The translations under genes were made by a program, and so were the position numbers. A stretch of 64,000 bases of DNA. Source: Desulfobaculum xiamenense. GTDB lineage: Bacteria; Desulfobacterota; Desulfovibrionia; Desulfovibrionales; Desulfovibrionaceae. The notes below the pieces were generated by a model. It did no database searches and was not told the origin of the DNA. It saw nothing but the letters and a program-made list of their open reading frames with translations. The stretch is from the NCBI RefSeq assembly GCF_011927665.1, contig NZ_JAATJA010000002.1, positions 372,001-436,000 on the forward strand, given 5' to 3'. The stretch's first letter is position 1. Each line of letters opens with the position of its first letter. Of the stretch, positions 40,266-55,684 are shown in pieces.

Positions 40266-40975
40266 ACGCATCGCTGGAACTCCCCATCCTCTACGCCGAC
40301 GCCAAGATCGTGGTCGTGGACAAGCCGAGCGGCCTGTTGTCCGTGCCCGGGCGCGGTCCCGAGAATCAGGACTGCGTGGTCACGCGCATTCAGGCCATGT
40401 TTCCCGAGTGTCGCAAGTACCCCTCGGTCCATCGGCTGGACATGGATACCTCCGGGCTGCTCGTCCTCGCCCTGACCGCCCGCGCCAACAGCGACCTTTT
40501 CGAGCAGTTTCGCCAGCGGCAGGTCTCCAAGCGCTACTTCGCTCTGCTTGATGGCGTCCTCGACGATGACTGCGGCGTCATCGACCTGCCCATCCGTCTC
40601 GATATCTTCGATCGCCCGCGCCAGATCTACGACCCCGTGCATGGCAAGGCCAGCGTCACCGATTGGCGCAGGCTCGGCGAGGTGCGGGGGCGCACCCTTG
40701 TGGAATTCACCCCGCACACCGGACGCACGCACCAGCTTCGCGTTCACTCCTCCCATTCCTTCGGCCTTGGCAGACCCATCGTCGGCGACAGGCTTTACGG
40801 CACCGGCACCGGTCCCGGACAGCTTCGCCTGCACGCCTGCCACCTGCGCTTTGCCCATCCTAAGACCGGCGAGACCATGGAATTCAACACCCGTCCGTCC
40901 GCAGCCTGGGGCGACGACGTGCTTGCGTTGTGCCCGCCGTGCGATGGCGCTGTGGCTGGCCGTATCGTTCGTTGA
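40262..40975 (+). CDS. RluA-family pseudouridine synthase
   Basis: The 237-residue catalytic domain has KPSGLLSVPGR and the active-site motif SVHRLDMDTSGLLVLA with the catalytic aspartate. It also has PHTGRTHQLRVHSSH and IVGDRLYG. It probably modifies tRNA position 32 and/or 23S rRNA position 746, as RluA does. It starts in ATGA with the preceding gene. The last codons and the stop (encoding AGRIVR) lie inside the edge of repeat E, so the C-terminus has probably been replaced or trimmed by the repeat. Confidence 0.92.
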   Translation: MNASLELPILYADAKIVVVDKPSGLLSVPGRGPENQDCVVTRIQAMFPECRKYPSVHRLDMDTSGLLVLALTARANSDLFEQFRQRQVSKRYFALLDGVLDDDCGVIDLPIRLDIFDRPRQIYDPVHGKASVTDWRRLGEVRGRTLVEFTPHTGRTHQLRVHSSHSFGLGRPIVGDRLYGTGTGPGQLRLHACHLRFAHPKTGETMEFNTRPSAAWGDDVLALCPPCDGAVAGRIVR

Positions 40976-41237
40976 CGGGGGCAAGGCGTTAGGTCCGCTG
41001 GATGCCACGGCCCACGTAGCCGTGCTGCGCTGTGGCCCACCGTATCGTTCTCGGCCACATGCAAGCCGTAGGCTCCGCCGGCCAAGGGGCCGCTGGCCCC
41101 TTGGAACCCCGACATGCGATGGACGTGGGTGCCCTTGGCGAGCCGTGCGGCTTTGAGCGACGAAGCCCTAGTGAGGATTGTCAAGGAAATCATTTCCTTG
41201 ACTGGGGTCCGGGGCAAAGCCCCGGCCGCCGGAGGCC
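40951..41237 (-). repeat. Structured intergenic repeat, copy E (type 2) with duplicated edge
   Basis: The main copy is about 41031-41237, in reverse orientation. An extra copy of its edge (GCTGTGGCTGGCCGTATCGTT and on, 40949-40980) lies 80 bases before it and contains the rluA-type stop codon. Hairpins: CCAAGGGGCC-GCT-GGCCCCTTGG near 41083-41105, GTCAAGGAAAT / ATTTCCTTGAC (41180-41202) and CCGGGGC-AAA-GCCCCGG (41209-41225). Confidence 0.9.
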
Positions 41238-41285
41238 TCGCTTGCGCGTAGCGGCGCGTCGTCCGACGAAGTTATGGCGCATACG

Positions 41286-41322
41286 AAAAAGCGCCCTCCC
41301 GCGTAGTGCGGGAGGGCGCTTT
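41286..41322 (-). terminator. Intrinsic terminator after dksA
   Basis: A perfect 12-bp stem (GCGCCCTCCCGC / GCGGGAGGGCGC, loop five bases) has TTTTT on the minus strand. Confidence 0.92.
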
Positions 41323-41351
41323 CATATTTCGTCGCTTGCTGGCGATGCGGT

Positions 41352-41711
41352 TCAGGAGCCGCGGGATTCGCCTTCTTCCTGGAGGCTCTTGCACTCCACG
41401 CAGAGGGTGGTGACGGGGCGGGCGCGCAGGCGGGCCGTGGATATCGGCTCGCCGCATTCCTCGCAGATGCCGTAGGTGTCTTCCTCGATGCGCTGGAGCG
41501 CCTCGTGGATCTTACGGATCATCTTGTGTTCACGATCCCTCAATCGGCAGGCCATGGAACGCAGGGTCTCGGACGAGGCCCAGTCCGTGGAGTCGGCAAG
41601 CTTGTCGCCTTCGGCGGAAAGTTCGGCAATGGTGGCCTTGCCGTTATTGCTGATGCCATCAAGCATGAGCGTGAGCGTACGGCGGAAGTATTCCTTTTCT
41701 TCGTGCGTCAT
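41352..41711 (-). CDS. dksA: DksA/TraR family RNA polymerase-binding factor
   Basis: The 119-residue protein has an N-terminal coiled coil (about 1-75) and a C-terminal four-cysteine zinc finger, ICEECGEPISTARLRARP followed by CVEC. The coiled-coil tip has DWASSETLRSMACRL. DksA proteins bind the RNA polymerase secondary channel and act with ppGpp on promoters. It is the distal gene of a minus-strand pair, 36 bases after the small OB-like gene, and ends at the 41286 terminator. Confidence 0.9.
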   Translation of the reverse strand: MTHEEKEYFRRTLTLMLDGISNNGKATIAELSAEGDKLADSTDWASSETLRSMACRLRDREHKMIRKIHEALQRIEEDTYGICEECGEPISTARLRARPVTTLCVECKSLQEEGESRGS

Positions 41712-41747
41712 GTACTGCCCTCCGGGCCTGTGGCCCGCTAAAAAAAG

Positions 41748-42035
41748 CTACCAGTCCTCTTCCTCTTCCCATTCGTCGATTTCCGGTGCGTCGATGACGT
41801 CGAAGCGCTGGACGGTGATGAAGTGCTGGCCTTCGCGTTTGGAAACGGTGCCGGTTGCCTTGACATACTCGTCCACATACTCGAGCAGCTGACACCCCTT
41901 GCCGGAGTTCTCGACGACATATTCCTTCGAGTCGTCGGCGACGATGGAAACGGCGACGACCTCTTCGTCCTCGTTCCAGTTGCTGGGGTCCACAAAGCCC
42001 TCAATGGTCATCTGCTGCATGCGCGCCTTTGGCAT
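41748..42035 (-). CDS. Small OB-like protein, member 1 of a local family
   Basis: The 95-residue acidic protein is not a named family to me. Its core (GFVDPSNWNEDEEVVAVSI ... YVVENSGKG ... YVKATGTVSKREGQHFITV) aligns along its length with the 104-residue protein at 46128, and more weakly with the secreted protein at 46483. The alternating hydrophobic pattern and Gly positions suggest a small beta-barrel. The C-terminus is very acidic (EIDEWEEEEDW). GGAG precedes the ATG. It is upstream of dksA and probably co-transcribed. Confidence 0.75.
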   Translation of the reverse strand: MPKARMQQMTIEGFVDPSNWNEDEEVVAVSIVADDSKEYVVENSGKGCQLLEYVDEYVKATGTVSKREGQHFITVQRFDVIDAPEIDEWEEEEDW

Positions 42036-42084
42036 GTCTCACTCCAGTGGGCCGGGTTCGGCGGCCGGCCGGTTGATGTGGTGT

Positions 42085-42759
42085 TCAGGCCGCTTCCCGC
42101 ATGGGGGCGGTGGCGGCGGAAACGCTTGCGGGGGCGTGGGCCATCCACCCGCCGAAAAACTTGAGGACCATCTCCACGCTGAAGGCCATTGCGGCCGTCA
42201 CGGCAAGTGATCTGGCTGCTGGCGCTGGCCCGAGCATGATTGCTCCCGCGGAGAACAGAGCAAAGTCGAAGCCGAGATATATCCGACCGATGGGGATGCC
42301 GAACCAGCGGTTCAGGCAGCGTCCCACGATGTCCATGCCCCCCTGCGATCCGCGTGAGAGCAGGGCCAGTCCGGTTCCTACGCCCATCACCAGCCCCGTT
42401 GCAAGCGCGCCGATGGTGGCGTTCGAAAAATCCATCCGCGTAGGGATGGCGTCGATGAGGATGCCTAGGCAGAACATCCCGTACAGGCTGTACAGGAGGA
42501 ACCGTCGTCCAAGCACCCGCCATGCCACGAGAAAGAACGGCGCGTTTAGCGCGAGGAGCCAGCGTCCGGGCGAGAGCCAGCCTGTGGCCTCGTGCAGCAG
42601 GAGACCCGCTCCGGAAAACCCTCCGAAAATGAGTCCCTGCGGGATTGCCATGGCCTTGCAGGCGAAGGCCGTCACGGTCGCTCCGGCCGTGAGCAAAGCC
42701 ATGTCGCGAACGATGGCCGGAAATGCGTTTTTGCCTATGTTGCGTGCGGTTGTAAACAT
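42085..42759 (-). CDS. YitT family (DUF161) membrane protein
   Basis: The 224-residue protein has five or six helices and the YitT features IPQGLIFGGFSGAGLLL, GLALLSRGSQGGMDIV and GIPIGRIYLGFDF. It lacks the C-terminal DUF2179 domain of many members. Function is unknown. The start is uncertain: ATG at 42759 is taken because homology begins nearby; ATG at 42801 is in frame and neither has a clear ribosome site. It is 49 bases upstream of the small OB-like gene and could start the unit that includes dksA. Confidence 0.78.
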   Translation of the reverse strand: MFTTARNIGKNAFPAIVRDMALLTAGATVTAFACKAMAIPQGLIFGGFSGAGLLLHEATGWLSPGRWLLALNAPFFLVAWRVLGRRFLLYSLYGMFCLGILIDAIPTRMDFSNATIGALATGLVMGVGTGLALLSRGSQGGMDIVGRCLNRWFGIPIGRIYLGFDFALFSAGAIMLGPAPAARSLAVTAAMAFSVEMVLKFFGGWMAHAPASVSAATAPMREAA

Positions 42760-43042
42760 ATTGTGTGCGTTTCTTTTGCGGGAACGTGAAATTCGGCTCA
42801 TGCCGGGGCGAGCCGGGGTGGAACCCGTAAGCAACCGCTGGGCCAAAGATGTTTTACTTATGATTGCGGGATGTTGCCCTGACAGTGTGGCTTTAGATGG
42901 AACTTCCTGTTCCGCTTTTGGGGCGCGGTGGGGTGCGAAAGTGGGCGTTTGGCGCATGAGGACGACGGAAAAAGTCCCGCGAGAGAGGGCGGTTTCTGAT
43001 GTTGGCAATGCGGGGCGGAATTGCGCGGTCCGTCATGGCGGA

Positions 43043-44182
43043 TTAGGAACCCGGAGTTCCCGTTTGCGTGTGCAGTGGGGCGGGGACCAGCGTTTGCTCC
43101 GGGCCGAAAGGGGGCAGGGGGATGTCCGGTGGCGCGGGCGGCAGGGCCTGTGTGGCGCGGTGTCGCCAGCGGTCGATGGGGCGGTCCACCAGCGCGTACA
43201 GGCCCAGCGTAGCGACGGCGGTGCCGAGGACCAGCGCAGCGGAGGAAAGCTCACACGGGGCGGCCTCCCACAGGGCGATGCAGAGGAAATGCACGAGGTA
43301 CAGGGGATAGGACAGGTCTCCGAGCAGGCGGTCGGTGCGGCTGTCACGCGTGAGGGCAAAGATGAAGGGCGTGGCGGAGGCGACAAGGACGGCCAGCGCC
43401 GGGAAGCGCCACGGCGCAGGAGCGACGCCGTGCAGCAGCATGCCCGCGATGGTGAAGGGCAGGAGCCATGCGCCGACGCGACACGCCCATGGGCGGTCCT
43501 TGATGAGCGTGTAGGCGTGATGGGCCAGCGCCCCGGCCATGAACAGCGGCAGGTGCGCGGGCATGAAGCGGTAGGCGAAGGCGTCCGCCGCCGGACCGAG
43601 CGCGTAGAGGGAGAGGCGAAGGGCGAGTCCCGCCGCGAGGATGGCAGAGCAGCGGCGCACCCCGCCGCGCACGAGGAAGGGGGCGGCGAGGTAGAAGAGC
43701 ATTTCCACGGATAGGGACCACGCCTGCGGCACGAGACTGAAGGTGTAGGCCTTCACGGCCGCGGGGTCGCCTGCGGCGAAGTGGAAGTGCCCCAGCGCGT
43801 CAACGCCGGTGACGAAGAGGAGGTCCTGTCCGATGACGAAGAGGGAGGACAGGGCGAGGGCGAGGCGCTCGGGCAGGGGCCAGTCGCCGACGGAGGCGAG
43901 GTAGTCCGCGTCCATGAAGGGGTGCGCGTCGAAGAGCGCGAGGGCGACGAGCGACAGGAGACAGGTGACGAGATAGGCGGGCATGAGCCGCAGGAAGCGG
44001 TTGGCGTAGAACACGCCGAGCGGCCGCGTGGCATAGCGGCCGTTGAGGATGAGGGCCATGTAGAAGCCCGAGAGGATGAAGAAGCACTGCACGGCCGAGC
44101 TTCCCTTGAGGAAGTCGTAACCGGCGATGCCGGAGTGGTGTTCGAAGACGGACAGGGCCAGAAGCAGTCGGAGAAGACCCAT
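43043..44182 (-). CDS. Acyltransferase 3 family membrane protein
   Basis: The 379-residue protein is an OafA/YrhL-type acyltransferase with about ten membrane helices. The N-terminal histidine is in LSVFEHHSGIAGYDFLKG, followed by FFILSGFYMAL and YANRFLRLMPAY. These enzymes O-acylate cell-surface sugars or peptidoglycan; the substrate is not visible. GGAGGT precedes the ATG. The gene is alone between a YitT-type gene and a sigma-54 activator gene. Confidence 0.88.
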   Translation of the reverse strand: MGLLRLLLALSVFEHHSGIAGYDFLKGSSAVQCFFILSGFYMALILNGRYATRPLGVFYANRFLRLMPAYLVTCLLSLVALALFDAHPFMDADYLASVGDWPLPERLALALSSLFVIGQDLLFVTGVDALGHFHFAAGDPAAVKAYTFSLVPQAWSLSVEMLFYLAAPFLVRGGVRRCSAILAAGLALRLSLYALGPAADAFAYRFMPAHLPLFMAGALAHHAYTLIKDRPWACRVGAWLLPFTIAGMLLHGVAPAPWRFPALAVLVASATPFIFALTRDSRTDRLLGDLSYPLYLVHFLCIALWEAAPCELSSAALVLGTAVATLGLYALVDRPIDRWRHRATQALPPAPPDIPLPPFGPEQTLVPAPLHTQTGTPGS

Positions 44183-44325
44183 GCGACCTCCGTGCGGCGG
44201 ACGAGTGTGTTGCGCACGGAAAGCAATCTTCGGGCCATGTAGCCTTGTTTAATGATGACGGTGTGTTGCGAAAAGTATGGGAATGGGATGGGAACTTTGG
44301 ATTCCGCTTGTGCGCAGGCTCCGAG

Positions 44326-45726
<1,401 letters not shown>

Positions 45727-45826
45727 GGTCATCTCCATGGGGTGAAGGGAACTGCTGCGGACTGTACGTGCGCCCTTGGAACCTTGCAACCGGAATCTTT
45801 GTGTGGGGCGGCTTCTCGGGCTGTTC

Positions 45827-45870
45827 GGAACCTTTTGTTCCCCCTCCCGCAATGGGGAACGCGTGGTTCC
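45827..45870. promoter_or_regulatory. Paired GGAAC-N5-GTTCC palindromes, probable activator sites
   Basis: Two perfect 15-bp palindromes lie at 45827-45841 and 45856-45870, 29 bases apart. A third with one mismatch (GGACC-N5-GTTCC) is at 45973-45987. They lie about 60-210 bases upstream of the sigma-54 promoter, the normal place for enhancer sites, and about 100-145 bases upstream of the divergent activator gene. Confidence 0.75.
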
Positions 45871-46040
45871 GAATCCTCAAAAATGGCCGCCGGGCGTGCA
45901 TCCCCGGGTGGAGGGTGGTAGGGTGGTGCCGAGTATCGGCGTTTGTCCGTGCGGTGGGGGTGTCATGATGGCGGACCTCCGTGTTCCGCTTTTTGCGGGC
46001 GTAGAAAAATAAAGTCATGTATCCCCGGTGGTTTGCATGT

Positions 46041-46056
46041 TGGCCCGAGCCTTGCT
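46041..46056 (+). promoter_or_regulatory. Sigma-54 (-24/-12) promoter of the aminomutase operon
   Basis: TGGCCCGAGCCTTGCT matches the consensus TGGCACG-N4-TTGC at all positions but one, with the essential GG and GC at the right distance. The first gene starts 72 bases downstream. Confidence 0.85.
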
Positions 46057-46127
46057 TTCCCTCCGGCACCACGACGGCGCATGGCCGCCGCGGAAGCGCA
46101 CGAACAGTTTTTCCGGAGGAATGAGAC

Positions 46128-46442
46128 ATGCGGCGATCGGATGCGCCCAAATCGCTGGAAGTCACGGGTATCGTCCTGCCCAGCGACTGGGACCACGCAG
46201 GCCGCCTCGTGGAGGTGGTCCTCTACGGCTCGGACGAGTCGGAGTTCGTTCTCAAGGGACCTCGCGTGAAGGATGAGCTTTTCAAGCTCTGCCACTACCG
46301 GCTGCGGGTGACCGGAGACCCGGTGGAGGACAAGGGACGCAAGGCCCTCGAAGTGCTGCATTTCGAGATCCTGGGCAACGAAACAGACTGTGGCTACGAA
46401 ACGAATTTCGATCTTGGCGGAGGCTTTCCGCTGTCCTGGTAG
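46128..46442 (+). CDS. Small OB-like protein, member 2
   Basis: The 104-residue protein is the first gene of the sigma-54 operon. Its core (VTGIVLPSDWDHAGRLVEVV ... EFVLKG ... RLRVTGDPVEDKGRKALEV) aligns with the protein encoded next to dksA at 41748. There is no signal peptide, so it is cytoplasmic. GGAGG lies about eight bases before the ATG. Function is not known; a nucleic-acid or metabolite-binding beta-barrel is only a structural guess. Confidence 0.75.
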   Translation: MRRSDAPKSLEVTGIVLPSDWDHAGRLVEVVLYGSDESEFVLKGPRVKDELFKLCHYRLRVTGDPVEDKGRKALEVLHFEILGNETDCGYETNFDLGGGFPLSW

Positions 46443-46482
46443 GGACGGTGGCCCCTCCCGAACGGGAAACCGAGGAGCAAGT

Positions 46483-46845
46483 ATGAGGATGACGTTGGGA
46501 CGAACCGGACGGCTGGTCATGAGCCTTGCGGCATTCGTCGTGCTGGCCCTTGGCGCTACCGTTGCGCAGGCCGAAGAGGTTTTCAGGGGTATTGTCTTCG
46601 AGGCGGAGACCGGTCTCGTGCTCGGCACGGATGACGACATGGTCTTCGTCCTGGAGGGACGCGACATGAGCCGCTACGTCGACGCGTATGTGTTGGTCGG
46701 CGGCAATGTGCGTGTCGAGGAGGACGGAACGCAGGTGCTCGACGTCACGCGTGTGGAGTTCGAGCCGGAAACCCCCGTCCAGAACGACGATGCCCCGTAT
46801 TTTGACGAATTGCAGCCTCCCGCGGTGGAGGCGAATCCCCAGTAA
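46483..46845 (+). CDS. Exported small OB-like protein, member 3
   Basis: The 120-residue protein has a signal peptide (MRMTLGRTGRLVMSLAAFVV ... ATVAQA) with likely cleavage before EEVF. The mature part (GIVFEAETGLVLGTDDDMVF ... YVDAYVLVGGNVRVEEDGTQ) has the same spacing of hydrophobic and Gly residues as the two cytoplasmic relatives, so it looks like a periplasmic version. A ribosome site (GAGGAG) is present. It lies 40 bases after member 2 and 69 before the aminomutase gene. Confidence 0.75.
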   Translation: MRMTLGRTGRLVMSLAAFVVLALGATVAQAEEVFRGIVFEAETGLVLGTDDDMVFVLEGRDMSRYVDAYVLVGGNVRVEEDGTQVLDVTRVEFEPETPVQNDDAPYFDELQPPAVEANPQ

Positions 46846-46914
46846 CCGTTGCCCTTGCCCCGGGCGGTCGCCGGAAAGGAACCGGTTGGGCCGTCCGAGT
46901 GGGAACAGAGAGAA

Positions 46915-48210
46915 ATGAAAACGATCATCGAGCAAGAAGATCAGCCTCCCTTGCGAGAGGCGGGAATGGCCAGAGTGAGCGACGCGCGCGGCACCATCGA
47001 ATCCGATGCCAGAGCTGCGCGGCGCAAGGCCATGGTCAAGGTCGAGGTCCCGGTCATCAACAAGACCGCACGGGCCTTCCGTGACGCACATTTCCCCGGC
47101 GTTGACGACGCCACGTGGAACGATTGGCGCTGGCAGGTGCGCAACAGGCTTTCCACCGTCGAGGACTTCCGCCGTATGCTCGGCGTGAACGCCCTTGAGG
47201 CCGAAGCCATTGCCATGCAGGGCCTGCGTCTTCCCGTGGCCGTTACGCCGTACTACGCGAGCCTGCTCACCGGGCTCGACTGCTCCGAAGCGCTTCGGCG
47301 CTGTGTCATTCCCGCGGCTGCCGAGCTTGATCGCAGCTACGGCGAATGCGGCGATCCGCTGGCCGAGGACCACGATAGCCCCGTTCCGGGCATCGTGCAT
47401 CGCTATCCGGACCGCGTGCTTTTCATCGCCACCGACATCTGTTCCACCTACTGCCGCTACTGCACGCGCTCGCGCCTTGTGGGCCGTAAGGAAACCCGCG
47501 CCCTGCGCACCCGCGTGTGGGACCAGGCCATCGACTACGTGCGTCGCACCCCGCAGGTGCGCGACGTTCTCGTTTCCGGCGGCGATCCGTTCCTGTTGCC
47601 CGACAGCGCGCTCGAATACATCCTCTCGCGCCTGCGTGCCATTCCGCATGTGGAGATGCTGCGCCTGGGCACCAAGACGCCCATGGTCCTGCCTCAGCGC
47701 ATCACTCCGGCGCTGGTGCGCATGCTCAAGCGTTACCACCCGCTGTTCGTGAGCATTCACTGCACGCACCCCGGTGAGCTGACGCCCGAGGCCGGTCAGG
47801 CCTGCGCGCGTCTGGCCGATGCGGGCATCCCGCTGGGCAGCCAGACCGTGCTGCTCTCCGGCGTGAACGACAACACCGAGACCATGCTCGCGCTTATGCG
47901 CGGCCTGCTGAAGAACCGCGTGCGTCCCTATTACCTGTACCAGTGCGATCAGGTGGAGGGCACCGCCCACTTCCGCACGCCGCTCTCGCGCGGCATCGAG
48001 ATCATGCGCGGGCTTCGCGGCTTCACCTCCGGATACGCCATCCCGCACTTCGTGGTGGACCTGCCTGGTGGCGGCGGCAAGACCCCTGTGCTTCCCGAGT
48101 ACTTCCAGGGACGCGACGGGGACGAGCTCATTTTCAAGAACTATGAGGGCCGCGAGTTCCGTACCCTCGATCCCCTGCCGTCCGCCGATACCGACGCGGA
48201 CCGGCGCTAG
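46915..48210 (+). CDS. kamA: Lysine 2,3-aminomutase family radical SAM enzyme
   Basis: The 431-residue enzyme has the cluster motif at Cys176, Cys180 and Cys183 (DICSTYCRYCTRSR). The PLP lysine is Lys389 in VVDLPGGGGKTPVLPEYF. Asp345 (YQCD) and Asp382 (VVD) correspond to the two aspartates that hold the lysine side-chain amino group in the clostridial enzyme; the spacings (37, then 7 to Lys389) are identical. So lysine is the likely substrate and beta-lysine the product. The length and upstream helical region are normal for KamA, longer than EpmB. It is followed after nine bases by the first ATP-grasp gene. Confidence 0.9.
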   Translation: MKTIIEQEDQPPLREAGMARVSDARGTIESDARAARRKAMVKVEVPVINKTARAFRDAHFPGVDDATWNDWRWQVRNRLSTVEDFRRMLGVNALEAEAIAMQGLRLPVAVTPYYASLLTGLDCSEALRRCVIPAAAELDRSYGECGDPLAEDHDSPVPGIVHRYPDRVLFIATDICSTYCRYCTRSRLVGRKETRALRTRVWDQAIDYVRRTPQVRDVLVSGGDPFLLPDSALEYILSRLRAIPHVEMLRLGTKTPMVLPQRITPALVRMLKRYHPLFVSIHCTHPGELTPEAGQACARLADAGIPLGSQTVLLSGVNDNTETMLALMRGLLKNRVRPYYLYQCDQVEGTAHFRTPLSRGIEIMRGLRGFTSGYAIPHFVVDLPGGGGKTPVLPEYFQGRDGDELIFKNYEGREFRTLDPLPSADTDADRR

Positions 48211-48219
48211 GAGTATGGC

Positions 48220-49248
48220 GTGAGGATTGGTATCACCTACGATCTGCGCAGCGACTACCTCGCTCGCGGATACTCCAAGGCCGAGACGGCCGAGTTCGAC
48301 AGCCCCGTGACCATCGACGGCATCGCAGGGGCGCTGACCCGCGCGGGCCACGAGGTGGAACGCGTGGGCGGTCTGGACGCGCTTATCGAGGCGCTGGCCG
48401 CCGGACGTAGCTGGGATCTCGTCTTCAACATCGCCGAGGGCATGCACGGATACGGCCGCGAGGCCGTGATTCCGGCGCTGCTTGAGGCGCGTGGCATTGC
48501 GTGTACCTTCTCGGACCCGCTGGCGCTGGCCGTGTGCCTGCACAAGCCCACTACCAAGCGCGTGGTGCGCGACGCGGGCGTGCCCACGCCGGAGTTCGCG
48601 GTCATCGCCACCATGGCGGACCTCGATGGCTTCGCGTTGCCGTTCCCGGTTTTCGCCAAACCCGTTGCCGAAGGCACGAGCAAGGGCGTGACCGGCTCCT
48701 CCCTCGTGCATGACGCCGCGCAGTTGGCAGAGGTGTGCGAACGGCTTCTGGCAGCGCATTCCCAGCCCGTGCTGGTGGAGCGCTACCTGCCCGGTCGCGA
48801 GTTCACCGTGGGCATCGTCGGCTCCGGCGCCAAGGCGAAGAGCATTGGCGTCATGGAAGTGCTGGTGGGCGGCAAGGGCGGCAGCGATGCCGTGTACTGC
48901 TACGACACCAAGCAGGAATATCTGGACCGCGTGACCTACCACCTCGCAACGGATGCGCAGGCGCAGGCCGCCGCCGAACTGGCCGTGGACGCGTGGCGCG
49001 CCCTCGACTGCCGCGACGCGGGCCGCGTGGATGTGCGTCTGGACGAGAACGGACAGCCGCGCTTCATCGAGGCCAACCCGCTGCCGGGCCTGCACCCCAT
49101 CGACTCGGACCTGCCGATCATCTGCAGGCTCGGGGGCATCGAGTATGACACGCTCATCCGGGCCATCGTGGCCGGGGCGTGCGAGCGCTGCGGCCTCGAC
49201 GGCGAGGCGCGGACCGGTCGCATTCCCGCGGCCGGAGAGGTCCAGTGA
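48220..49248 (+). CDS. ATP-grasp ligase, D-Ala-D-Ala ligase-like (first)
   Basis: The 342-residue protein starts with GTG after AGGAG. It has a pre-ATP-grasp domain (1-95, GITYDLRSDYLARGYSK, LVFNIAEGMHGYGREA), an ATP-binding region (PVFAKPVAEGTSKGV, LVERYLPGREFTVGIVG) and metal ligands in RFIEANPLPGLHP. The family forms carboxylate-amine bonds through acyl phosphates. It differs enough from Ddl, and sits in such a context, that a cell-wall role is unlikely. Beta-lysine or a product of it is a plausible substrate, by inference. It overlaps the next ligase gene by four bases (GTGA). Confidence 0.87.
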   Translation: MRIGITYDLRSDYLARGYSKAETAEFDSPVTIDGIAGALTRAGHEVERVGGLDALIEALAAGRSWDLVFNIAEGMHGYGREAVIPALLEARGIACTFSDPLALAVCLHKPTTKRVVRDAGVPTPEFAVIATMADLDGFALPFPVFAKPVAEGTSKGVTGSSLVHDAAQLAEVCERLLAAHSQPVLVERYLPGREFTVGIVGSGAKAKSIGVMEVLVGGKGGSDAVYCYDTKQEYLDRVTYHLATDAQAQAAAELAVDAWRALDCRDAGRVDVRLDENGQPRFIEANPLPGLHPIDSDLPIICRLGGIEYDTLIRAIVAGACERCGLDGEARTGRIPAAGEVQ

Positions 49249-50258
49249 TCGTCGCGGTCCTCTACAATCGTCCGCTGCCGGGCTGTGGTGCCGAGGAACT
49301 CGACACCATGGTCCAGGTGCGGGCCGTTTCGGAAACCCTGAGGGAGCTGGGGCATGGTGTCTACACCGTGCCCTTTTCCCTTGATCTGCCCGACGCCGCG
49401 GCGACGCTTCGCGCCCTGCGGCCGGACATCGTGTTCAATCTCGCCGAGGGTGCGGACGGCAAGGGGAGATTCATCCACTTCGCCCCGGCGCTGCTCGAAG
49501 ACCTTGGTCTGCCGTTCACGGGTGCGGACAGTACGGCCATGGCCGTCAGTTCCAACAAGCTCATGGCCAAGGCGCACATGCGTTCCGCCGGGCTGCCCAC
49601 GCCGCCGTGGCGGACCCTGCCCCAGTTGGATTCCGGCGAGCGCGAGGCGCGCGGCACCTTCATCATCAAGTCCGTGTGGGAGCATGCCTCCATCGGCCTT
49701 GAGGGCGATTGCGTCGTGGAGGTGCGAAGCGCCGCCGCGCTGATGGACGCCATGCTCCGTTTGCGCGGGCGCATGGGCGGGGAGTGCTTCGCCGAGCGCT
49801 TTCTCGATGGGCACGAATACTGCGTGGCCATGCTCGATTCCCCGAACGGGCCGCAGGCCCTGCCGCCGGCGCGCATGCGCTTCGGCGGCGGGACGGGCAG
49901 CGAGCGGGTCATCGGCTACCGTGCGAAGTGGGACGAAGAGGCGCCGGAATACGACCTCGTGCGCCGGGACTTCGATTCCTGCGCGGCGGACGCGGCCCTG
50001 TGTCGCGATCTGACGAGCACGGCCCTTGCGTGCTGGAAGGCCTTTGGCCTGTCCGGCTACGCGCGGGTGGATTTCCGTACCGGCGCGCACGGCGAGGTCA
50101 ACATCATAGACATCAACGCAAACCCCTGCCTGTCTCCGGATGCGGGATTCGCCGCGGCCCTCGAACGGGCCGGGATTCCCTACGCCGATGCGGTGCGCAG
50201 GATTCTCGAAGCCGCTCTGGTTTGGCACGACGCGGGGCGATCGGTACGTAGGAAATGA
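49245..50258 (+). CDS. ATP-grasp ligase, D-Ala-D-Ala ligase-like (second)
   Basis: The 337-residue protein starts with GTG in the GTGA overlap. It resembles the first ligase in plan but is clearly diverged: AVLYNRPLPGCGAEELD, DIVFNLAEGADGKGRFIHFA, GTFIIKSVWEHASIGLEG, and metal ligands in NIIDINANPCLSPDAGF. Two unlike ligases in a row suggest two successive couplings or a ligase acting on the product of the first. Its stop overlaps the acetyltransferase gene (ATGA). Confidence 0.87.
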   Translation: MIVAVLYNRPLPGCGAEELDTMVQVRAVSETLRELGHGVYTVPFSLDLPDAAATLRALRPDIVFNLAEGADGKGRFIHFAPALLEDLGLPFTGADSTAMAVSSNKLMAKAHMRSAGLPTPPWRTLPQLDSGEREARGTFIIKSVWEHASIGLEGDCVVEVRSAAALMDAMLRLRGRMGGECFAERFLDGHEYCVAMLDSPNGPQALPPARMRFGGGTGSERVIGYRAKWDEEAPEYDLVRRDFDSCAADAALCRDLTSTALACWKAFGLSGYARVDFRTGAHGEVNIIDINANPCLSPDAGFAAALERAGIPYADAVRRILEAALVWHDAGRSVRRK

Positions 50259-50797
50259 AGAAAGGACTGGATTTCGAATTCCGCCGCACGGTGTGTGAAG
50301 CGGACGTGGAGACCGTGACGTCCATCGTGACGTCCAGCGGATTCTTCACCGAGGAAGAAATAGAGATTGCCGCGTCGCTGGTGCGGGAGCGGCTTGAATT
50401 CGGTCCCTCGACCGGGTATGAGTTTCTCTTCGCGGACGCAGGGGGACAAACCCTCGGATACGCCTGCTACGGGCCGACGGATGACGATCCCACGCTGTAC
50501 GATCTGTACTGGATCGCCATGCAGGATCGACTGCGCGGCTACGGCGTGGGTACGCGGATTCTGCTTGCCGTGGAGGAGCTGGTGCGTCATGGAGGCGGTA
50601 CGGTGCTTCGCATCGAGACGTCGTCCCAGCCGCTTTACACGCCCACCCGTGCCTTCTACGAGGGGCACGGATACACGCTGATCGATGTGACGGAAGACTT
50701 CTACGCGCCGGGAGACGCCCGGTGCACCTATACGCGAAACGTTTGGGAACCCGTGGGGGGCAGCGCCCCCAGCGGCGCAGAGGTGATCAATGGATAG
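50255..50797 (+). CDS. GNAT family N-acetyltransferase
   Basis: The 180-residue protein has the acetyl-CoA loop DRLRGYGVGTRILLAVEE and the typical C-terminal RAFYEGHGYTLIDV. It is translationally coupled to the second ligase (ATGA). In methanogens and other bacteria a beta-lysine acetyltransferase (AblB) partners KamA (AblA) to make N-epsilon-acetyl-beta-lysine. This protein is shorter than usual AblB, but an acetylation of beta-lysine or of a peptide made by the ligases is the obvious hypothesis. The last 20 residues are glycine/alanine-rich and run into cheW. Confidence 0.85.
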   Translation: MKKGLDFEFRRTVCEADVETVTSIVTSSGFFTEEEIEIAASLVRERLEFGPSTGYEFLFADAGGQTLGYACYGPTDDDPTLYDLYWIAMQDRLRGYGVGTRILLAVEELVRHGGGTVLRIETSSQPLYTPTRAFYEGHGYTLIDVTEDFYAPGDARCTYTRNVWEPVGGSAPSGAEVING

Positions 50798-51329
50798 ACA
50801 TGTCGACGGAAACGGATTGGTGCAGCTGGTGACCTTCCATCTCGGCCGCGAACGCTACGGCGTCGAGGTCGTGCGCGTGCGCGAGATTGTGCGCATGCAG
50901 TCCATCACAGCTGTACCCCGCTCCCCGAAGCATGTGCTTGGCGTCACCAATCTGCGCGGCAGCCTCGTCTCTGTCATGGACCTGCGCATGCGCCTCGGCC
51001 TTGAACGCATTCCCTACGGTCCCAAGACCCGTATCCTCATCGTGGAGGCCGGGGTGCAGCCCGTGGGGCTGGTGGTCGATTCCGTGGCCGACGTCATGCG
51101 TCTGCCGCGCGAGGCCATGGGCGAGACCTCGGGCCTGCTTTCCGGCTCCGAGGCGCGCTGCGTGCGTAGCGTGGCCGAGATAGGCGACGGCTCCCTGCTT
51201 CTCGAACTGGATCTCGACGACCTTTTGGGCGGCGAGCAGGATGAGGGGCAGGTGTCGTGCGTGGCCGAGACCTCGGACACGGCCAGTTCCATCGGCCAGT
51301 CCGGCGGAGCAGGCCGCCGCGCCGCCTGA
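50790..51329 (+). CDS. cheW: CheW-like chemotaxis coupling protein
   Basis: The 179-residue protein has a full CheW domain (VQLVTFHLGRERYGVEVVRV ... RSPKHVLGVTNLRGSLVSVM ... GLVVDSVADVMRLP). The 30-residue tail is low in complexity. CheW links chemoreceptors to the CheA kinase. It overlaps the acetyltransferase gene by eight bases and has no promoter of its own that I can see, so it appears to be in the sigma-54 operon. No other che gene is in the window. A terminator follows. Confidence 0.92.
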   Translation: MDRHVDGNGLVQLVTFHLGRERYGVEVVRVREIVRMQSITAVPRSPKHVLGVTNLRGSLVSVMDLRMRLGLERIPYGPKTRILIVEAGVQPVGLVVDSVADVMRLPREAMGETSGLLSGSEARCVRSVAEIGDGSLLLELDLDDLLGGEQDEGQVSCVAETSDTASSIGQSGGAGRRAA

Positions 51330-51379
51330 CGCGTTTCGCTTGCGACACATTCTCCCGCTGCCTTGGGCGCGGGATGCCG

Positions 51380-51422
51380 ATCGGCCCGGACACGCCACGC
51401 GCGTCCGGGCCGATGTCGTTTT
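51380..51422 (+). terminator. Terminator at the end of the aminomutase-cheW operon
   Basis: A perfect 12-bp stem (ATCGGCCCGGAC / GTCCGGGCCGAT) with an 11-base loop is followed by GTCGTTTT. Confidence 0.8.
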
Positions 51423-51478
51423 GTCGAGCGTTGTGGCGTAGGGGGGATGTCGGGGGGGTATCGTCTTGGATGGCGAGC

Positions 51479-51508
51479 TTGCCAACAATCCGGAAAGGCG
51501 ATTAAAAT
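51479..51508 (+). promoter_or_regulatory. Probable sigma-70 promoter of galE
   Basis: TTGCCA and TAAAAT with an 18-base spacer, each five of six consensus bases, lie 92 bases before the galE start and downstream of a terminator. Confidence 0.6.
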
Positions 51509-51599
51509 GGCCGGATTGATCGGGTGCGACGATTCCGGCTCGGGCCGGGGTTCCCGTCACGGCCGAATGCACCTCAACTCGTACACAAGGGCGTCTGGC

Positions 51600-52580
51600 A
51601 TGACCAACATCCTCGTCACCGGCGGAGCCGGATACATCGGCAGCCACACCTGCAAGCTGCTCAAGGCGGCGGGCTACACCCCCGTGACCTTCGACAATAT
51701 GGTCTACGGCCACGACTGGGCCGTGAAATGGGGCCCGCTGGAGCGCGGCGACATTCTCGACCGCGCGGCCCTCGACGCCGTCTTCGACACCTACGCCCCT
51801 GCGGCGGTCATCCACTTTGCCGCCTACACCTACGTGGGCGAGTCCGTGGAAAACCCCGGCCGCTACTACCGCAACAACGTGGCGGGCACGGTGAACCTCA
51901 TGGAGGCCATGCGCGACCACGGCTGCCGCAGCATCATCTTCTCCAGCACCTGCGCCACTTACGGCGTGCCCGAGCGCATGCCCATGACCGAAGACTTGCC
52001 CCAGAAGCCCATCAACCCCTACGGCTGGACCAAGCTCATGATCGAGCAGGTGCTGCGGGACTTCGAAACCGCTCACGGCATCAGCCACATGGCCCTGCGC
52101 TACTTCAACGCCGCCGGGGCCGACCCGGACGGCGAGATCGGCGAGGACCACGACCCTGAGACGCACCTCATCCCGCTCACCGTGCAGGCTGGCCTTGGGC
52201 TGCGCGGTCCCATCCGCATTTTCGGCGACGACTACCCAACGCCCGACGGCACCGCCGTGCGCGACTATATCCATGTGACCGACCTTGCCGACGCGCATAT
52301 CCGCGCGCTGGAGGTGCTCATGGAGGGTGGGGCGAGCCGCATGCTCAACCTCGGCACCGGCCATGGGGCCAGCGTGCGCGAGGTGGTGGACGCCGTGGGG
52401 CGCGTGCTCGGTCAGCCTGTCCCTGCGGAAATGGCCCCGCGCCGGGCCGGCGATCCGCCCATGCTCGTGGCCGATGCCACCCGTGCCCGCAACGAGCTTG
52501 GGTGGGTCCCTCGGCATACGGACATCGACGCCATCGTCGAGACCGCCTGCCGCTGGCATCGCGCGCATCAGCTCGGCTAG
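51600..52580 (+). CDS. galE: UDP-glucose 4-epimerase
   Basis: The 326-residue short-chain dehydrogenase-type epimerase has the NAD motif TGGAGYIGSHTCKLL and the catalytic Ser/Thr with the YxxxK pair (FSSTCATYG, NPYGWTK). The C-terminal part has ALRYFNAAGADPDGEIGE. It interconverts UDP-glucose and UDP-galactose for surface polysaccharides. The ATG is chosen by family length; only a weak AAGG lies upstream. No polysaccharide genes are adjacent. Confidence 0.93.
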   Translation: MTNILVTGGAGYIGSHTCKLLKAAGYTPVTFDNMVYGHDWAVKWGPLERGDILDRAALDAVFDTYAPAAVIHFAAYTYVGESVENPGRYYRNNVAGTVNLMEAMRDHGCRSIIFSSTCATYGVPERMPMTEDLPQKPINPYGWTKLMIEQVLRDFETAHGISHMALRYFNAAGADPDGEIGEDHDPETHLIPLTVQAGLGLRGPIRIFGDDYPTPDGTAVRDYIHVTDLADAHIRALEVLMEGGASRMLNLGTGHGASVREVVDAVGRVLGQPVPAEMAPRRAGDPPMLVADATRARNELGWVPRHTDIDAIVETACRWHRAHQLG

Positions 52581-52739
52581 TCGGGGTGGGGCCGTCCGGG
52601 GTGGATCATCTGGGGAGGCGGCGTGTATTCCGGAACATCCCGTCACGGTTGACAATTTATATTCCTCGGGCCAAGGCATGGGCACTGGTGTTCTTATGCA
52701 ATGGCGGCCATGGCCTGTGCCGGGCCGGGGGAGTTGAAA

Positions 52740-54107
52740 ATGTTTTCGAGATGGCAGGCCAAGGGCGGCTATCGCGACGTGTTTCGCGTGGGGTTGCCGC
52801 TGGTGGCCAGCATGGCCTCGGCCACGGTGATGCAGTTCACGGACCGAGTGTTCCTTGGCAATTATTCGTTGGACGCGCTGGCCGCTTCGCTTTCGGGCAG
52901 CGTGGTCAACTTCGTGTTCATGGCCTTCTTTTCCGGCGTGGCCAGCTACGCCACGGTCTTCGTGGCGCAGTATGTCGGGTCCGGGCAGCCGCGAAACGTC
53001 GGCCCGGTGGTCTGGCAGTCCGTGTGGTTCTCCCTCGCGGCCGGGGCGTGCATGGCGCTTCTGTCGCTTGTCGGGCCGTCCATTTTCGCGCTGGCCGGGC
53101 ATGCGCCCGAGGTGCGCGAGCTGGAGTGCGCCTATTTCTCCATTCTGAGCGTGGCCTCCGGGCTGAACATCTTCGGCGTGAGCCTGGCGTGCTTCTATTC
53201 CGGGCGCGGACTCACGCGCACGGTGATGCTGGTCAGCCTCGCCGGGGCGCTGGTCAACATCCCCCTCGACTACTGTCTTATTAATGGCTACGGCCCGTTT
53301 CCCGAGATGGGCATCCGTGGCGCGGGCTACGCCACGGCCATCGGCTGGGCGCTTTCCGCCGCGCTGTACGCGCTTCTGGTGCTGCGCCGGGCCAACGAGG
53401 CCGAATTCGCCATGCTGTCCGGCTTCCGCTTCGACCGCGAACTGTTTCTGCGGCTCATGCGCTTCGGGCTGCCTAGCGGCACGCAGGTCTTTCTCGACAT
53501 GTTCGGCGTGACCTTCTTCATCCTGCTGGTGGGCCGGATGGGCAATGCCGCGCTGGCCACCACCAACATGGTCTTCAGTCTCGACCATTTTAGCTTCCTG
53601 CCCATGTACGGCCTGCACGTCGCCGCGGAGGTCATGGTGGGGCAGGCGCTTGGCGCGGGGCGGGCGGACGACGCGGCCTATGCCGCCGGTAGCGCGGTGC
53701 GCCTGTGCTTCGGCTGGGCGGTCGTGGTCTCGATCATCTTCGTGTTCTGCCCCGGACCGCTGCTCGACATGTTCCGGCCCTCGTCCTACACGCCGGAGCA
53801 GTACGCGCAGATTCGTCACACCGGCGAGGTGCTACTGCGCTTCGTGGCCGCGTGGGCGCTGTTCGAGGCCTTCGCCATCGGCTACATGGGCGCGCTCAAG
53901 GGCGCGGGGGACACACGCTTCGTCATGCTGCTCATTGGCGCATGCTCCCTGTCCACGCTGGTGATTCCCACCTATTTCGTTGTGGAGGTCTTTGACGCCG
54001 GGCTGTACGCGGCGTGGAGTTGCGTGCTGCTCAACGTGATTCTGCTGTCGGTCTTTGCGCGGTGGCGTTTCGCGCAGGGGCGCTGGAAGCGTATGCGCGT
54101 GATCTGA
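52740..54107 (+). CDS. MATE family exporter (first of a tandem pair)
   Basis: The 455-residue protein has about 12 membrane helices and MATE features: LPLVASMASATVMQFTDRVF at the start, GRGLTRTVMLVSLAGALVNI and PEMGIRGAGYATAIGWALSA. It is a sodium- or proton-driven multidrug exporter by family. The ATG is chosen because the paralogue at 54311 begins at the same place; GGGGGAG lies upstream. The two copies are similar along most of their length, so they arose by duplication. Confidence 0.92.
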   Translation: MFSRWQAKGGYRDVFRVGLPLVASMASATVMQFTDRVFLGNYSLDALAASLSGSVVNFVFMAFFSGVASYATVFVAQYVGSGQPRNVGPVVWQSVWFSLAAGACMALLSLVGPSIFALAGHAPEVRELECAYFSILSVASGLNIFGVSLACFYSGRGLTRTVMLVSLAGALVNIPLDYCLINGYGPFPEMGIRGAGYATAIGWALSAALYALLVLRRANEAEFAMLSGFRFDRELFLRLMRFGLPSGTQVFLDMFGVTFFILLVGRMGNAALATTNMVFSLDHFSFLPMYGLHVAAEVMVGQALGAGRADDAAYAAGSAVRLCFGWAVVVSIIFVFCPGPLLDMFRPSSYTPEQYAQIRHTGEVLLRFVAAWALFEAFAIGYMGALKGAGDTRFVMLLIGACSLSTLVIPTYFVVEVFDAGLYAAWSCVLLNVILLSVFARWRFAQGRWKRMRVI

Positions 54108-54228
54108 GCGGGACAAAAATTTCCCGCATCCGGCACTCCGGCGGGACGGCGGGAATCCATCACGGGATTCCGGGGGTATGCGCGGGCTGCGACGGACTGC
54201 GACATGCCCTTGTGTGCCCGCACGGGCA

Positions 54229-54256
54229 TTGACATTCGGGCCGCAGTCTGCATACT
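54229..54256 (+). promoter_or_regulatory. Probable sigma-70 promoter of the second MATE gene
   Basis: TTGACA (perfect) with CATACT 16 bases on, 55 bases before the start. A 7-bp inverted repeat (GGAATCC / GGATTCC, near 54151-54170) lies upstream and could be an operator or weak terminator. Confidence 0.55.
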
Positions 54257-54310
54257 GGACAGTCGCACATCATTCTTCCGGCATGTCCGTGCCGATTTCC
54301 GGAGACATCA

Positions 54311-55684
54311 ATGATTTCGAGATGGGCCGTGCGCAACGGCTATCGTGACGTATTGACCATTGGCTTGCCGCTCGTGGCGAGCATGGCTTCCAACACCATC
54401 ACCCAATTCACCGACCGCGTCTTCCTCGCCCACTATTCGCTGGAGACGCTTGCCGCCTCGCTCTCCGCGGGTGTGGTGAGCTTTGGGTTCAGTGCCTTTT
54501 TCGCGGGCCTTGCGAGCTATGTGAACGTGTTCGTCGCCCAGTACACCGGTGCGGGGCGCAATCTGCGCGTCGGTCCCGCCCTGTGGCAGGGCCTGTGGTT
54601 TGCTCTGGTGGCTGGCCTGTGCATGAGTGCGCTGGCCCTGCCCGCCGAGTGGATATTCACCGTTGCCGGCCACGCGCCGGTGGTGCAGGCCATGGAGGTG
54701 GACTACTACCGCATCTTGTGCTTCGCCTCGGCCTTCAGCATCCTCGATGTGGTGCTGGGCGGATTCTACACCGGGCGCGGCATCACCCGGCCGGTCATGG
54801 TCGTGAACCTTGCCGGAGCGCTGCTCAACATTCCGTTGGACTACATGTTCATCTACGGCTTCGGACCGATTCCCGAGATGGGCATCCGTGGTGCGGGCTA
54901 TGCCACGGCCATCGCGTGGGGCTTTTCCGCCGCGCTGTTCGCCGTGCTCATCTTCACCCGCAAGAACGAGGAGAGCTTTGCCGTGCGTTCCGGGTGGCGG
55001 GTGCAGCCGGACCTGTTCCGGCGGCTGGTGCGCTTCGGATTGCCGAGCGGCGTGGAGTTCTTCCTCGACGTGTTCGGCTTCACGGTGTTCATCCTGCTGG
55101 TGGGCCGCATCGGCAATGTGGAGCTTGCAGCGACGAACATGGTCTTCAGCCTCAATCAGTTCAGCTTCATGCCCATGATCGGCCTGCACATCGCCGTGCA
55201 ATCCATGGTGGGACAGGCCGTTGGCGCGGGGTGCCCGGACGACGGCGAAGCCGCCGCCACCAGCACCATGCATCTGTGCGTGGGCTGGGCCGCCGTCATG
55301 GCGCTGATCTATCTGCTGCTGCCCGGTCCGCTTACGGACCTCTTCCGGCCCGACGGATTCACGGCGGCGCAGTATGCCCCCGTGCGCGACACCGGACGGA
55401 TTCTGCTCATGTTCGTGGCCTTCTATACGCTGTTCGACGCGGTGGCCATCACCTACCTCGGCGCGCTCAAGGGCGCGGGCGACACGGCCTACACCATGCG
55501 CCTCATCGGCGCGGCGTCCATGTGCGCGATGGTCGTTCCCTCGTATGTGGCGCTGGAAGTGCTGCATGCCGGGCTGTACGCGGGATGGCTCTGCGTGGTG
55601 AGCTATGTGCTCCTGTTGGCCTTCTTCGCGCTACGACGCTTCCGGCGTGGGCATTGGCGCGGGATGCGCGTTATCGAGGCCTAG
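54311..55684 (+). CDS. MATE family exporter (second of a tandem pair)
   Basis: The 457-residue protein is a paralogue of the preceding exporter, with LPLVASMASNTITQFTDRVF, GRGITRPVMVVNLAGALLNI and PEMGIRGAGYATAIAWGFSA. It also has about 12 helices. GGAG precedes the ATG. The separate promoter-like sequence between the genes suggests that the two can be expressed independently. The substrate is unknown. Confidence 0.92.
   Translation: MISRWAVRNGYRDVLTIGLPLVASMASNTITQFTDRVFLAHYSLETLAASLSAGVVSFGFSAFFAGLASYVNVFVAQYTGAGRNLRVGPALWQGLWFALVAGLCMSALALPAEWIFTVAGHAPVVQAMEVDYYRILCFASAFSILDVVLGGFYTGRGITRPVMVVNLAGALLNIPLDYMFIYGFGPIPEMGIRGAGYATAIAWGFSAALFAVLIFTRKNEESFAVRSGWRVQPDLFRRLVRFGLPSGVEFFLDVFGFTVFILLVGRIGNVELAATNMVFSLNQFSFMPMIGLHIAVQSMVGQAVGAGCPDDGEAAATSTMHLCVGWAAVMALIYLLLPGPLTDLFRPDGFTAAQYAPVRDTGRILLMFVAFYTLFDAVAITYLGALKGAGDTAYTMRLIGAASMCAMVVPSYVALEVLHAGLYAGWLCVVSYVLLLAFFALRRFRRGHWRGMRVIEA

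Follow-up and report, generated by a model that had tools for sequence, protein, structure and literature searches.

A conserved gene unit of an aminomutase, two ATP-grasp ligases and an acetyltransferase in Desulfobaculum xiamenense, possibly for a beta-lysyl peptide

Four adjacent genes in a 64,000-nucleotide stretch of the Desulfobaculum xiamenense genome (contig NZ_JAATJA010000002.1, positions 372,001 to 436,000 of the forward strand; hereafter the window) encode a lysine 2,3-aminomutase-type enzyme (KamA), two ATP-grasp ligases with the fold of D-Ala-D-Ala ligase (Ddl), here called AG1 and AG2, and a GNAT acetyltransferase. The set KamA-AG1-AG2-GNAT, contiguous in most of the relatives examined, is the real unit of the locus, and the evidence that its genes form one pathway is strong. 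We consider it somewhat probable that the unit is one biosynthetic module, in which lysine would be turned into beta-lysine and then into a small, reversibly acetylated peptide. In the window the four genes belong to a seven-gene operon with a divergent sigma-54 activator gene, which lies just outside the region, starting at 45727, that was treated in an earlier note made from the letters of this DNA. That note had described a divergent activator and seven close or overlapping plus-strand genes, and the open reading frames and Pfam matches listed here confirmed this layout.

44326..45726, minus strand: sigma-54 activator (enhancer-binding protein) with an atypical receiver domain; Pfam Sigma54_activat 216.6 bits, Response_reg 31.3 bits
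46128..46442, plus strand: orf1, small OB-fold protein with no Pfam family; structure model with mean pLDDT (predicted local distance difference test) 80, OB-type PDB matches
46483..46845, plus strand: DUF5818 protein, OB fold, signal-peptide-like N-terminus (by eye); PF19135 28.8 bits (cut-off 27), model mean pLDDT 73 with a confident core
46915..48210, plus strand: KamA, radical SAM enzyme of lysine 2,3-aminomutase type, separate subfamily by AblA model (458 bits), 2a5h match and tree
48220..49248, plus strand: AG1, ATP-grasp ligase of D-Ala-D-Ala-ligase fold; PF07478 100.6 bits, Ddl models below cut-off
49245..50258, plus strand: AG2, second ligase of D-Ala-D-Ala-ligase fold; PF07478 50.5 bits, Ddl models below cut-off
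50255..50797, plus strand: GNAT acetyltransferase, close relative of the solved structure 2r7h (profile match, E value 3e-64); PF00583 34.8 bits
50790..51329, plus strand: CheW-like protein, a lineage-specific addition; PF01584 123.6 bits
~51380..51414, plus strand: hairpin at the operon end, z -3.7

The gaps were 40 nucleotides between orf1 and the DUF5818 gene and 69 nucleotides between the latter and KamA, and from KamA to CheW the neighbouring genes were separated by a 9-nucleotide gap or overlapped by 4-8 nucleotides. The hairpin after CheW was strong, but no T-run site came up in a terminator scan.

Conservation of the unit was seen in three samples. Among 149 genomes of the family, 64 had some KamA-family match and 33 had the operon KamA, the rest being AblA-class or more distant; a genome was counted as operon-positive at a match of at least 469 bits, a limit set by hand (the next class starts at 409). 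No KamA-family match was present in the one other genome of the window's genus that was searched. In the 32 operon loci of the family besides the window, KamA lay directly upstream of AG1 without exception, AG2 lay directly downstream of AG1 in 29 of the 31 testable loci, and in 24/27 GNAT was either fused to AG2 or no more than 2.3 kb from it. The wide loci, the best 80 of at least 574 relatives that the AG1 alignment picked up in named genomes, contained KamA directly upstream of AG1 in 66 of the 76 testable, AG2 directly downstream in 60/72, and a GNAT or deacetylase gene within 2.3 kb after AG2 in 51/54. In a phylum sample of 297 genomes with thresholds of at least 640 bits for KamA and at least 400 bits for AG1, both were found in 49 genomes, KamA only in 3 and AG1 only in 13. 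The 101 cluster KamA proteins of the tree described below carry 11 phylum labels; most of the wide records are metagenome bins whose names are outdated or loose, so that single labels may be wrong, and gene starts in the relatives' loci are approximate. These family, wide and phylum counts support the earlier note's view of the four enzymes as one conserved, co-occurring unit, whose wide spread across lineages it had overlooked. Ligases scattered without the aminomutase, which by that note would speak against its idea, were looked for and found to be rare. Ten wide loci lacked KamA directly upstream of AG1; KamA was close by in three of them (L099, L126, L133) and a good KamA was encoded elsewhere in the genome in four, and the remaining three, Rhizobiales records with neither KamA nor AG2 near AG1 (L078, L088, L123), had at most a distant KamA. 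In L078 and L123, AG1 follows a gene for a class II ribonucleotide reductase. Transporter-type neighbours varied among lineages (CorA, Pit, a Ca/Na antiporter and, by eye, a permease), and in L048:12898-14941 two permease-like genes, also recognised by eye, lie between AG2 and GNAT.

The sole PDB match of KamA was the aminomutase 2a5h (E value 5e-137). D319 and D345, whose equivalents in lysine 2,3-aminomutase we take to be the lysine-binding residues, aligned with 2a5h and were invariant in 24 orthologues, as was one C-terminal Lys, and the two lysine-binding aspartates named in the earlier note were thus found in place. The radical SAM Cys motif, which with the two Asp residues makes up the AblA-type residue test, was present as well. 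On the curated NCBIfam models, KamA scored 458 bits against AblA (TIGR03820, cut-off 525.4) and 235.8 bits against EpmB (TIGR03821, cut-off 369.3), and three of its wide relatives also stayed below the AblA cut-off with 451-475 bits, whereas three AblA-class paralogues of the family scored 768-779 bits. A quick tree covered 110 KamA proteins, and its two outgroup branches were long. In it, a branch with a support of 100 in the Shimodaira-Hasegawa-like approximate likelihood ratio test (SH-aLRT) separated 101 of the 102 cluster proteins from six AblA-class proteins and that of L099. By these scores and this tree the operon KamA is a separate subfamily outside the AblA family. The KamA beside AG1 in L099 is above the AblA cut-off (554 vs 525). 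The second KamA-family gene of the window's genome (L071, G000:C1:1022201-1023295) was closest to glutamate 2,3-aminomutase, yet below its cut-off.

Both ligases matched Pfam Dala_Dala_lig_C (cut-off 24 bits), AG1 with 100.6 and AG2 with 50.5 bits, so that the fold assigned in the earlier note was upheld, but the NCBIfam Ddl cut-offs of 243 and 245.65 bits were reached by neither AG1 (151.5 and 123.9 bits) nor AG2 (106.9 and 86.3 bits). At the position of NTLPGMTATSL in Ddl 8evx, presumably the region where Ddl holds its second substrate, AG1 contained NPLPGL..SDL and AG2 contained NANPCLSPDAG. We read these alignments as ligases that keep the ATP-grasp features and differ from Ddl at the second-substrate region. 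In nine loci (L061, L063, L073, L075, L089, L094, L120, L136, L141), KamA-AG1 was present without AG2 directly downstream, as judged within the loci, which suggests that AG1 acts next after KamA. Tandem AG1-like ligases occurred in single reading frames at L217:4268-6298 and L218:4651-6747; both halves matched AG1, with no KamA found in either stretch, and these double ligases were not counted as fusions of the two ligases.

The operon GNAT gave no match up to E 0.1 against the AblB model (NCBIfam TIGR03827, cut-off 205.1 bits), to which the AblB of a relative (L065), used as positive control, scored 332.3 bits, and by this comparison it is not AblB. Since KamA is outside the AblA model and GNAT outside the AblB model, the statement in the earlier note that a KamA and an acetyltransferase together yield acetyl-beta-lysine is not directly transferable to this operon. 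The profile matches of GNAT after 2r7h included ribosomal-protein acetyltransferases. The locus tag presumed to be that of the 2r7h gene pointed, in PMC8836040, to what looks like an unrelated gene, and no conclusion is drawn from this tag.

In the relatives' loci, a gene for a GNAT-deacetylase fusion protein was found within or beside the operon; in many cases the gene is unlinked, and the genome of the window encodes such a protein about 81 kb away. Its HDAC-type domain (PF00850, cut-off 27.9 bits) scored 253.1 bits in the partner from the window's genome, 246.9 in L058 and 261 in L140, and was closest to acetylpolyamine amidohydrolases, with an E value of 2.5e-70 to a solved amidohydrolase. 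The fusion was present in 26 of the 33 operon genomes of the family sample and in none of the 116 others (Fisher 5e-23, kinship ignored); a partial match to the deacetylase domain alone, seen in 13/39 genomes, was not counted. In the phylum sample, 28 of the 297 genomes encoded the full-length fusion (one partial match, in G417, was dropped), of which 24 had a high-scoring AG1 or KamA, and the other four had a divergent KamA-AG1-AG2-GNAT set, with KamA at the opposite end in three. In addition, AG2 was fused to GNAT in L052, L059 and L133, and GNAT-deacetylase-GNAT proteins were encoded in L140 and L219; these fusions tie steps of the pathway together. The deacetylase-bearing partner and the gene fusions had escaped the earlier note.

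The operon has the marks of sigma-54 activation, namely an activator, a -24/-12 promoter and upstream operators that are conserved across species, and the activator would bind the GGAAC-N5-GTTCC sites. The control sites of the operon were as follows.

45827..45841, strand not applicable: operator 1, perfect GGAAC-N5-GTTCC (pattern scan)
45856..45870, strand not applicable: operator 2, perfect GGAAC-N5-GTTCC, 29 bp after operator 1 (pattern scan)
46041..46056, plus strand: operon -24/-12 promoter TGGCCCGAGCCTTGCT (TGGCCCG-N4-TTGCT), 185 bp past the start of operator 2 (pattern scan)

The degenerate operator GGAAYN5RTTCC occurred at 6 sites in the window vs 0.18 expected, and TGGCMCGN4TTGCT at 2 sites vs 0.04 expected. 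Among the regions between activator and operon, the operator was perfect in 17/28 (0.05 expected from base shuffles) and had at most one mismatch in 22/28 (0.6 expected), the other six having two or more mismatches. A promoter score of at least 10 of 12 was found in 18/25 regions vs 0.26 expected from coding windows, with two loci with very long activator-to-operon regions excluded; a score of 9 was too weak as a threshold (26/27 regions vs 17/27 in the coding control). The two perfect palindromes and the near-consensus promoter of the earlier note were thus confirmed as above chance, both in the window and across the loci compared. In 27 of the 32 family loci, the 5 kb upstream of KamA contained the activator gene, and of five further activator-linked loci from named genomes, L098 and L124 had two operators each and the other three had none. 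In the receiver domain of this activator, and of most of its relatives linked to the operon, the motif is LTYP, with Tyr in place of Lys before Pro and the Asp mostly kept (by eye), so the signal of the activator may not be ordinary phosphorylation.

Genome-wide there were 29 GGAAYN5RTTCC sites, six of them within the window, vs 3 for the reversed pattern. Among the window sites and 20 of the 23 others, only three units, all in the window, had an operator together with a sigma-54-like site scoring at least 10 and a gene start, namely the operon, an acyltransferase-3 gene and a YitT-family gene. Pairings with a score of 9 at window position 60239, L199 and L212 gave no convincing gene. Most of the genomic sites examined were without a sigma-54 site, and the half-site is perhaps common to another regulator. 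Riboswitch control, suggested by PMC9337991, was not borne out by Rfam, which gave no match in window positions 40000-55000 and only a tRNA in the 21 of 80 wide loci scanned. The acyltransferase and YitT-family units, which the earlier note had overlooked while reading the operon's own sites correctly, lie beyond the activator gene.

43043..44182, minus strand: membrane acyltransferase-3 gene, probably of the same regulon; PF01757 74.2 bits, operator and promoter upstream
44222..44237, minus strand: -24/-12 promoter TGGCCCGAAGATTGCT of the acyltransferase gene (pattern scan)
44291..44305, strand not applicable: operator of the acyltransferase gene, one base off in one half-site (pattern scan)
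42085..42801, minus strand: YitT-family membrane protein gene, possibly of the same regulon; PF02588 127 bits, operators at 42899 and 43046
42830..42845, minus strand: weaker promoter-like site of the YitT gene, 10 of 12 (sigma-54 scoring)

The acyltransferase-3 gene probably, and the YitT-family gene possibly, belongs to the regulon of the operon. An acyltransferase-3 homologue was present in 6 of the 32 family loci, among which no YitT-family gene was found. In the Desulfovibrio lineage, the activator bound to tandem GGAAC-N5-GTTCC sites would fire the sigma-54 promoters of the operon, the acyltransferase gene and perhaps the YitT-family gene. On the other side of the operon, at 52740-55684 on the plus strand, two MATE-family transporter genes stand side by side, 3' of a galE-like gene.

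CheW, the OB proteins and the sigma-54 control were mostly lineage-specific. CheW, which the earlier note had counted in the set, was present in 3/32 family loci besides the window and hence is not core. The two small proteins before KamA gave five-strand models with confident cores in structure prediction, and their 50 listed PDB matches were by name mostly OB folds (SSB, RPA, PriB, lysyl-tRNA synthetase), which supports the label "OB-like" with the caution that every match had an E value of at least 0.001. In a tblastn search of 100 wide loci, the acyltransferase was found in 1, the DUF5818 protein in 2 and orf1 in 4, although short divergent proteins could escape such a search.

Each reaction, the order of the steps, the product and its role are what we infer from these data. 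KamA would convert L-lysine to beta-lysine, which AG1 would link to another amino acid or to another beta-lysine; AG2 would add a further unit, and GNAT would acetylate a free amine, with the GNAT-deacetylase fusion putting an acetyl group on an aminoalkyl end or taking it off. The product would be a small beta-lysyl peptide with reversible acetylation, and the acetylated beta-lysine peptide proposed in the earlier note is plausible as chemistry. As to its role, we lean towards a stress or compatible-solute metabolite. Several results weigh against this pathway. KamA reached the cut-off of no equivalog model, which leaves a few residues and the overall similarity as the basis for taking lysine as its substrate. 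The deacetylase domain matched the protein deacetylase HDAC6 with a nearly equal score (E value 1.4e-69). The fusion partner was missing from seven operon genomes of the family and from 41 genomes of the phylum sample with AG1 or KamA, some loci were without AG2 or GNAT, and the three Rhizobiales records were without cluster-type KamA (two with a distant KamA, one with none). The variable transporter neighbours gave no consistent role, and neither the varied neighbours nor the Rfam scans made gave direct support for an osmolyte or a signal.

The strong match to HDAC6 also fits another explanation, that GNAT and the GNAT-deacetylase fusion switch the pathway on and off at a lysine residue in the ligases or in KamA, without acting on a metabolite, much as AcuA and AcuC acetylate and deacetylate acetyl-CoA synthetase in Bacillus and thereby switch the enzyme. 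The fusion of acetyltransferase and deacetylase and the ribosomal-protein acetyltransferases among the matches of GNAT agree with such a switch, but acetylpolyamine amidohydrolases were the best matches of the deacetylase, if by a narrow margin, and there were KamA-AG1 pairs without GNAT or deacetylase beside them (as judged from adjacent genes). We regard a switch of this kind as unlikely. A second pathway to the osmolyte N-acetyl-beta-lysine, with the ligases serving something else, appears more doubtful still. Its combination of KamA with a GNAT follows the logic of AblA-AblB, and YitT-family genes lie near both systems; on the other side, GNAT was without the AblB match that the AblB of a relative gave so clearly, the operon KamA was in a clade of its own, AG1 was the most constant partner, and one genome (G131) carries both the operon (L050) and a cut-off-passing AblA with an AblB-like gene next to it (L064).

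The lowest probability is given to an envelope function, in which the ligases would produce building blocks of the cell wall or envelope, either D-Ala-D-Ala-like ones or a side chain of beta-lysine, and the acyltransferase-3 and exported OB protein would act on the envelope. The Ddl fold of AG1 and AG2 and the similar control of the membrane acyltransferase gene and of the gene for a protein with a signal-peptide-like N-terminus are in its favour, whereas the Ddl cut-offs were not reached, the acyltransferase and the OB proteins were rare in the tblastn search, and no Mur or glycan gene was among the ten annotated neighbour proteins, which are a minority of the neighbours. Returning to the beta-lysyl peptide, we put forward tentatively, as possible and somewhat short of probable, that it represents an undescribed class of metabolite across many phyla, for which an aminomutase subfamily and a pair of Ddl-fold ligases would be dedicated to synthesis, its charge tuned by a paired acetyltransferase and deacetylase, with a sigma-54 regulon of its own in Desulfovibrionaceae and the YitT-family membrane protein as a possible carrier in this organism. 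If so, a small molecule common in anaerobic and sediment bacteria would have been overlooked, many D-Ala-D-Ala-ligase-like genes would do something else, an HDAC-like enzyme would have a role beside a small-molecule pathway, and there would be a lead on the YitT-family membrane proteins, which are uncharacterised according to Pfam.

No published account of the KamA-AG1-AG2-GNAT set was found among open-licence PMC papers. The words aminomutase, lysine, ATP-grasp and CheW are all absent from the main text of PMC4641369 and PMC3333781, PMC5686539 contains none of five terms related to lysine or acetyl groups, and the relevant passages of PMC13422317 concerned AblA-AblB only.

Compared with known systems, AG1 and AG2 share with Ddl and VanA the fold and the ATP-grasp core, by Pfam and PDB profile searches, but are far under the Ddl cut-offs and differ from 8evx in motif. 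The C-terminal domain of the partner resembles acetylpolyamine amidohydrolases and HDAC-like deacetylases, but in the partner it is joined with one GNAT domain or two, and the partner is tied to the KamA-ligase genes. In the EpmB-EpmA system for beta-lysylation of EF-P, the KamA-family enzyme EpmB makes beta-lysine; the operon KamA is of the same family and under the EpmB cut-off. The osmolyte system of N-acetylglutaminylglutamine amide makes an acetylated dipeptide with an ATP-grasp enzyme and a GNAT, by its own ligase, amidotransferase and peptidase families; the likeness is one of logic, and to our knowledge it has no KamA or deacetylase. Passages of PMC12316311 report sigma-54 control of lysine 2,3-aminomutase (COG1509) genes in Bacilli, which is similar in the control of a KamA-family gene and different in the bacterial class, with ligases unmentioned in those passages. 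The nearest counterpart is the AblA-AblB pathway to N-epsilon-acetyl-beta-lysine, described in PMC3543383 and PMC9337991. In six AblA-class loci of relatives, three of which gave the 768-779 bits above, an AblB-like reading frame followed AblA in 6/6 (by eye; one tested by model, as above), no operator or sigma-54 site of at least 9 was found within 800 nucleotides upstream, and a YitT-size gene started about 798 nucleotides past AblA in 5/6; Pfam, run on L065, confirmed YitT and DUF2179 domains there. This gene after AblA-AblB (L065-L069) is a possible carrier of beta-lysine compounds. The operon shares with AblA-AblB an aminomutase-type enzyme with the Asp pair, a GNAT and a nearby YitT-family gene, but its KamA and GNAT fail the AblA and AblB models, and two ATP-grasp ligases and the deacetylase fusion are added.

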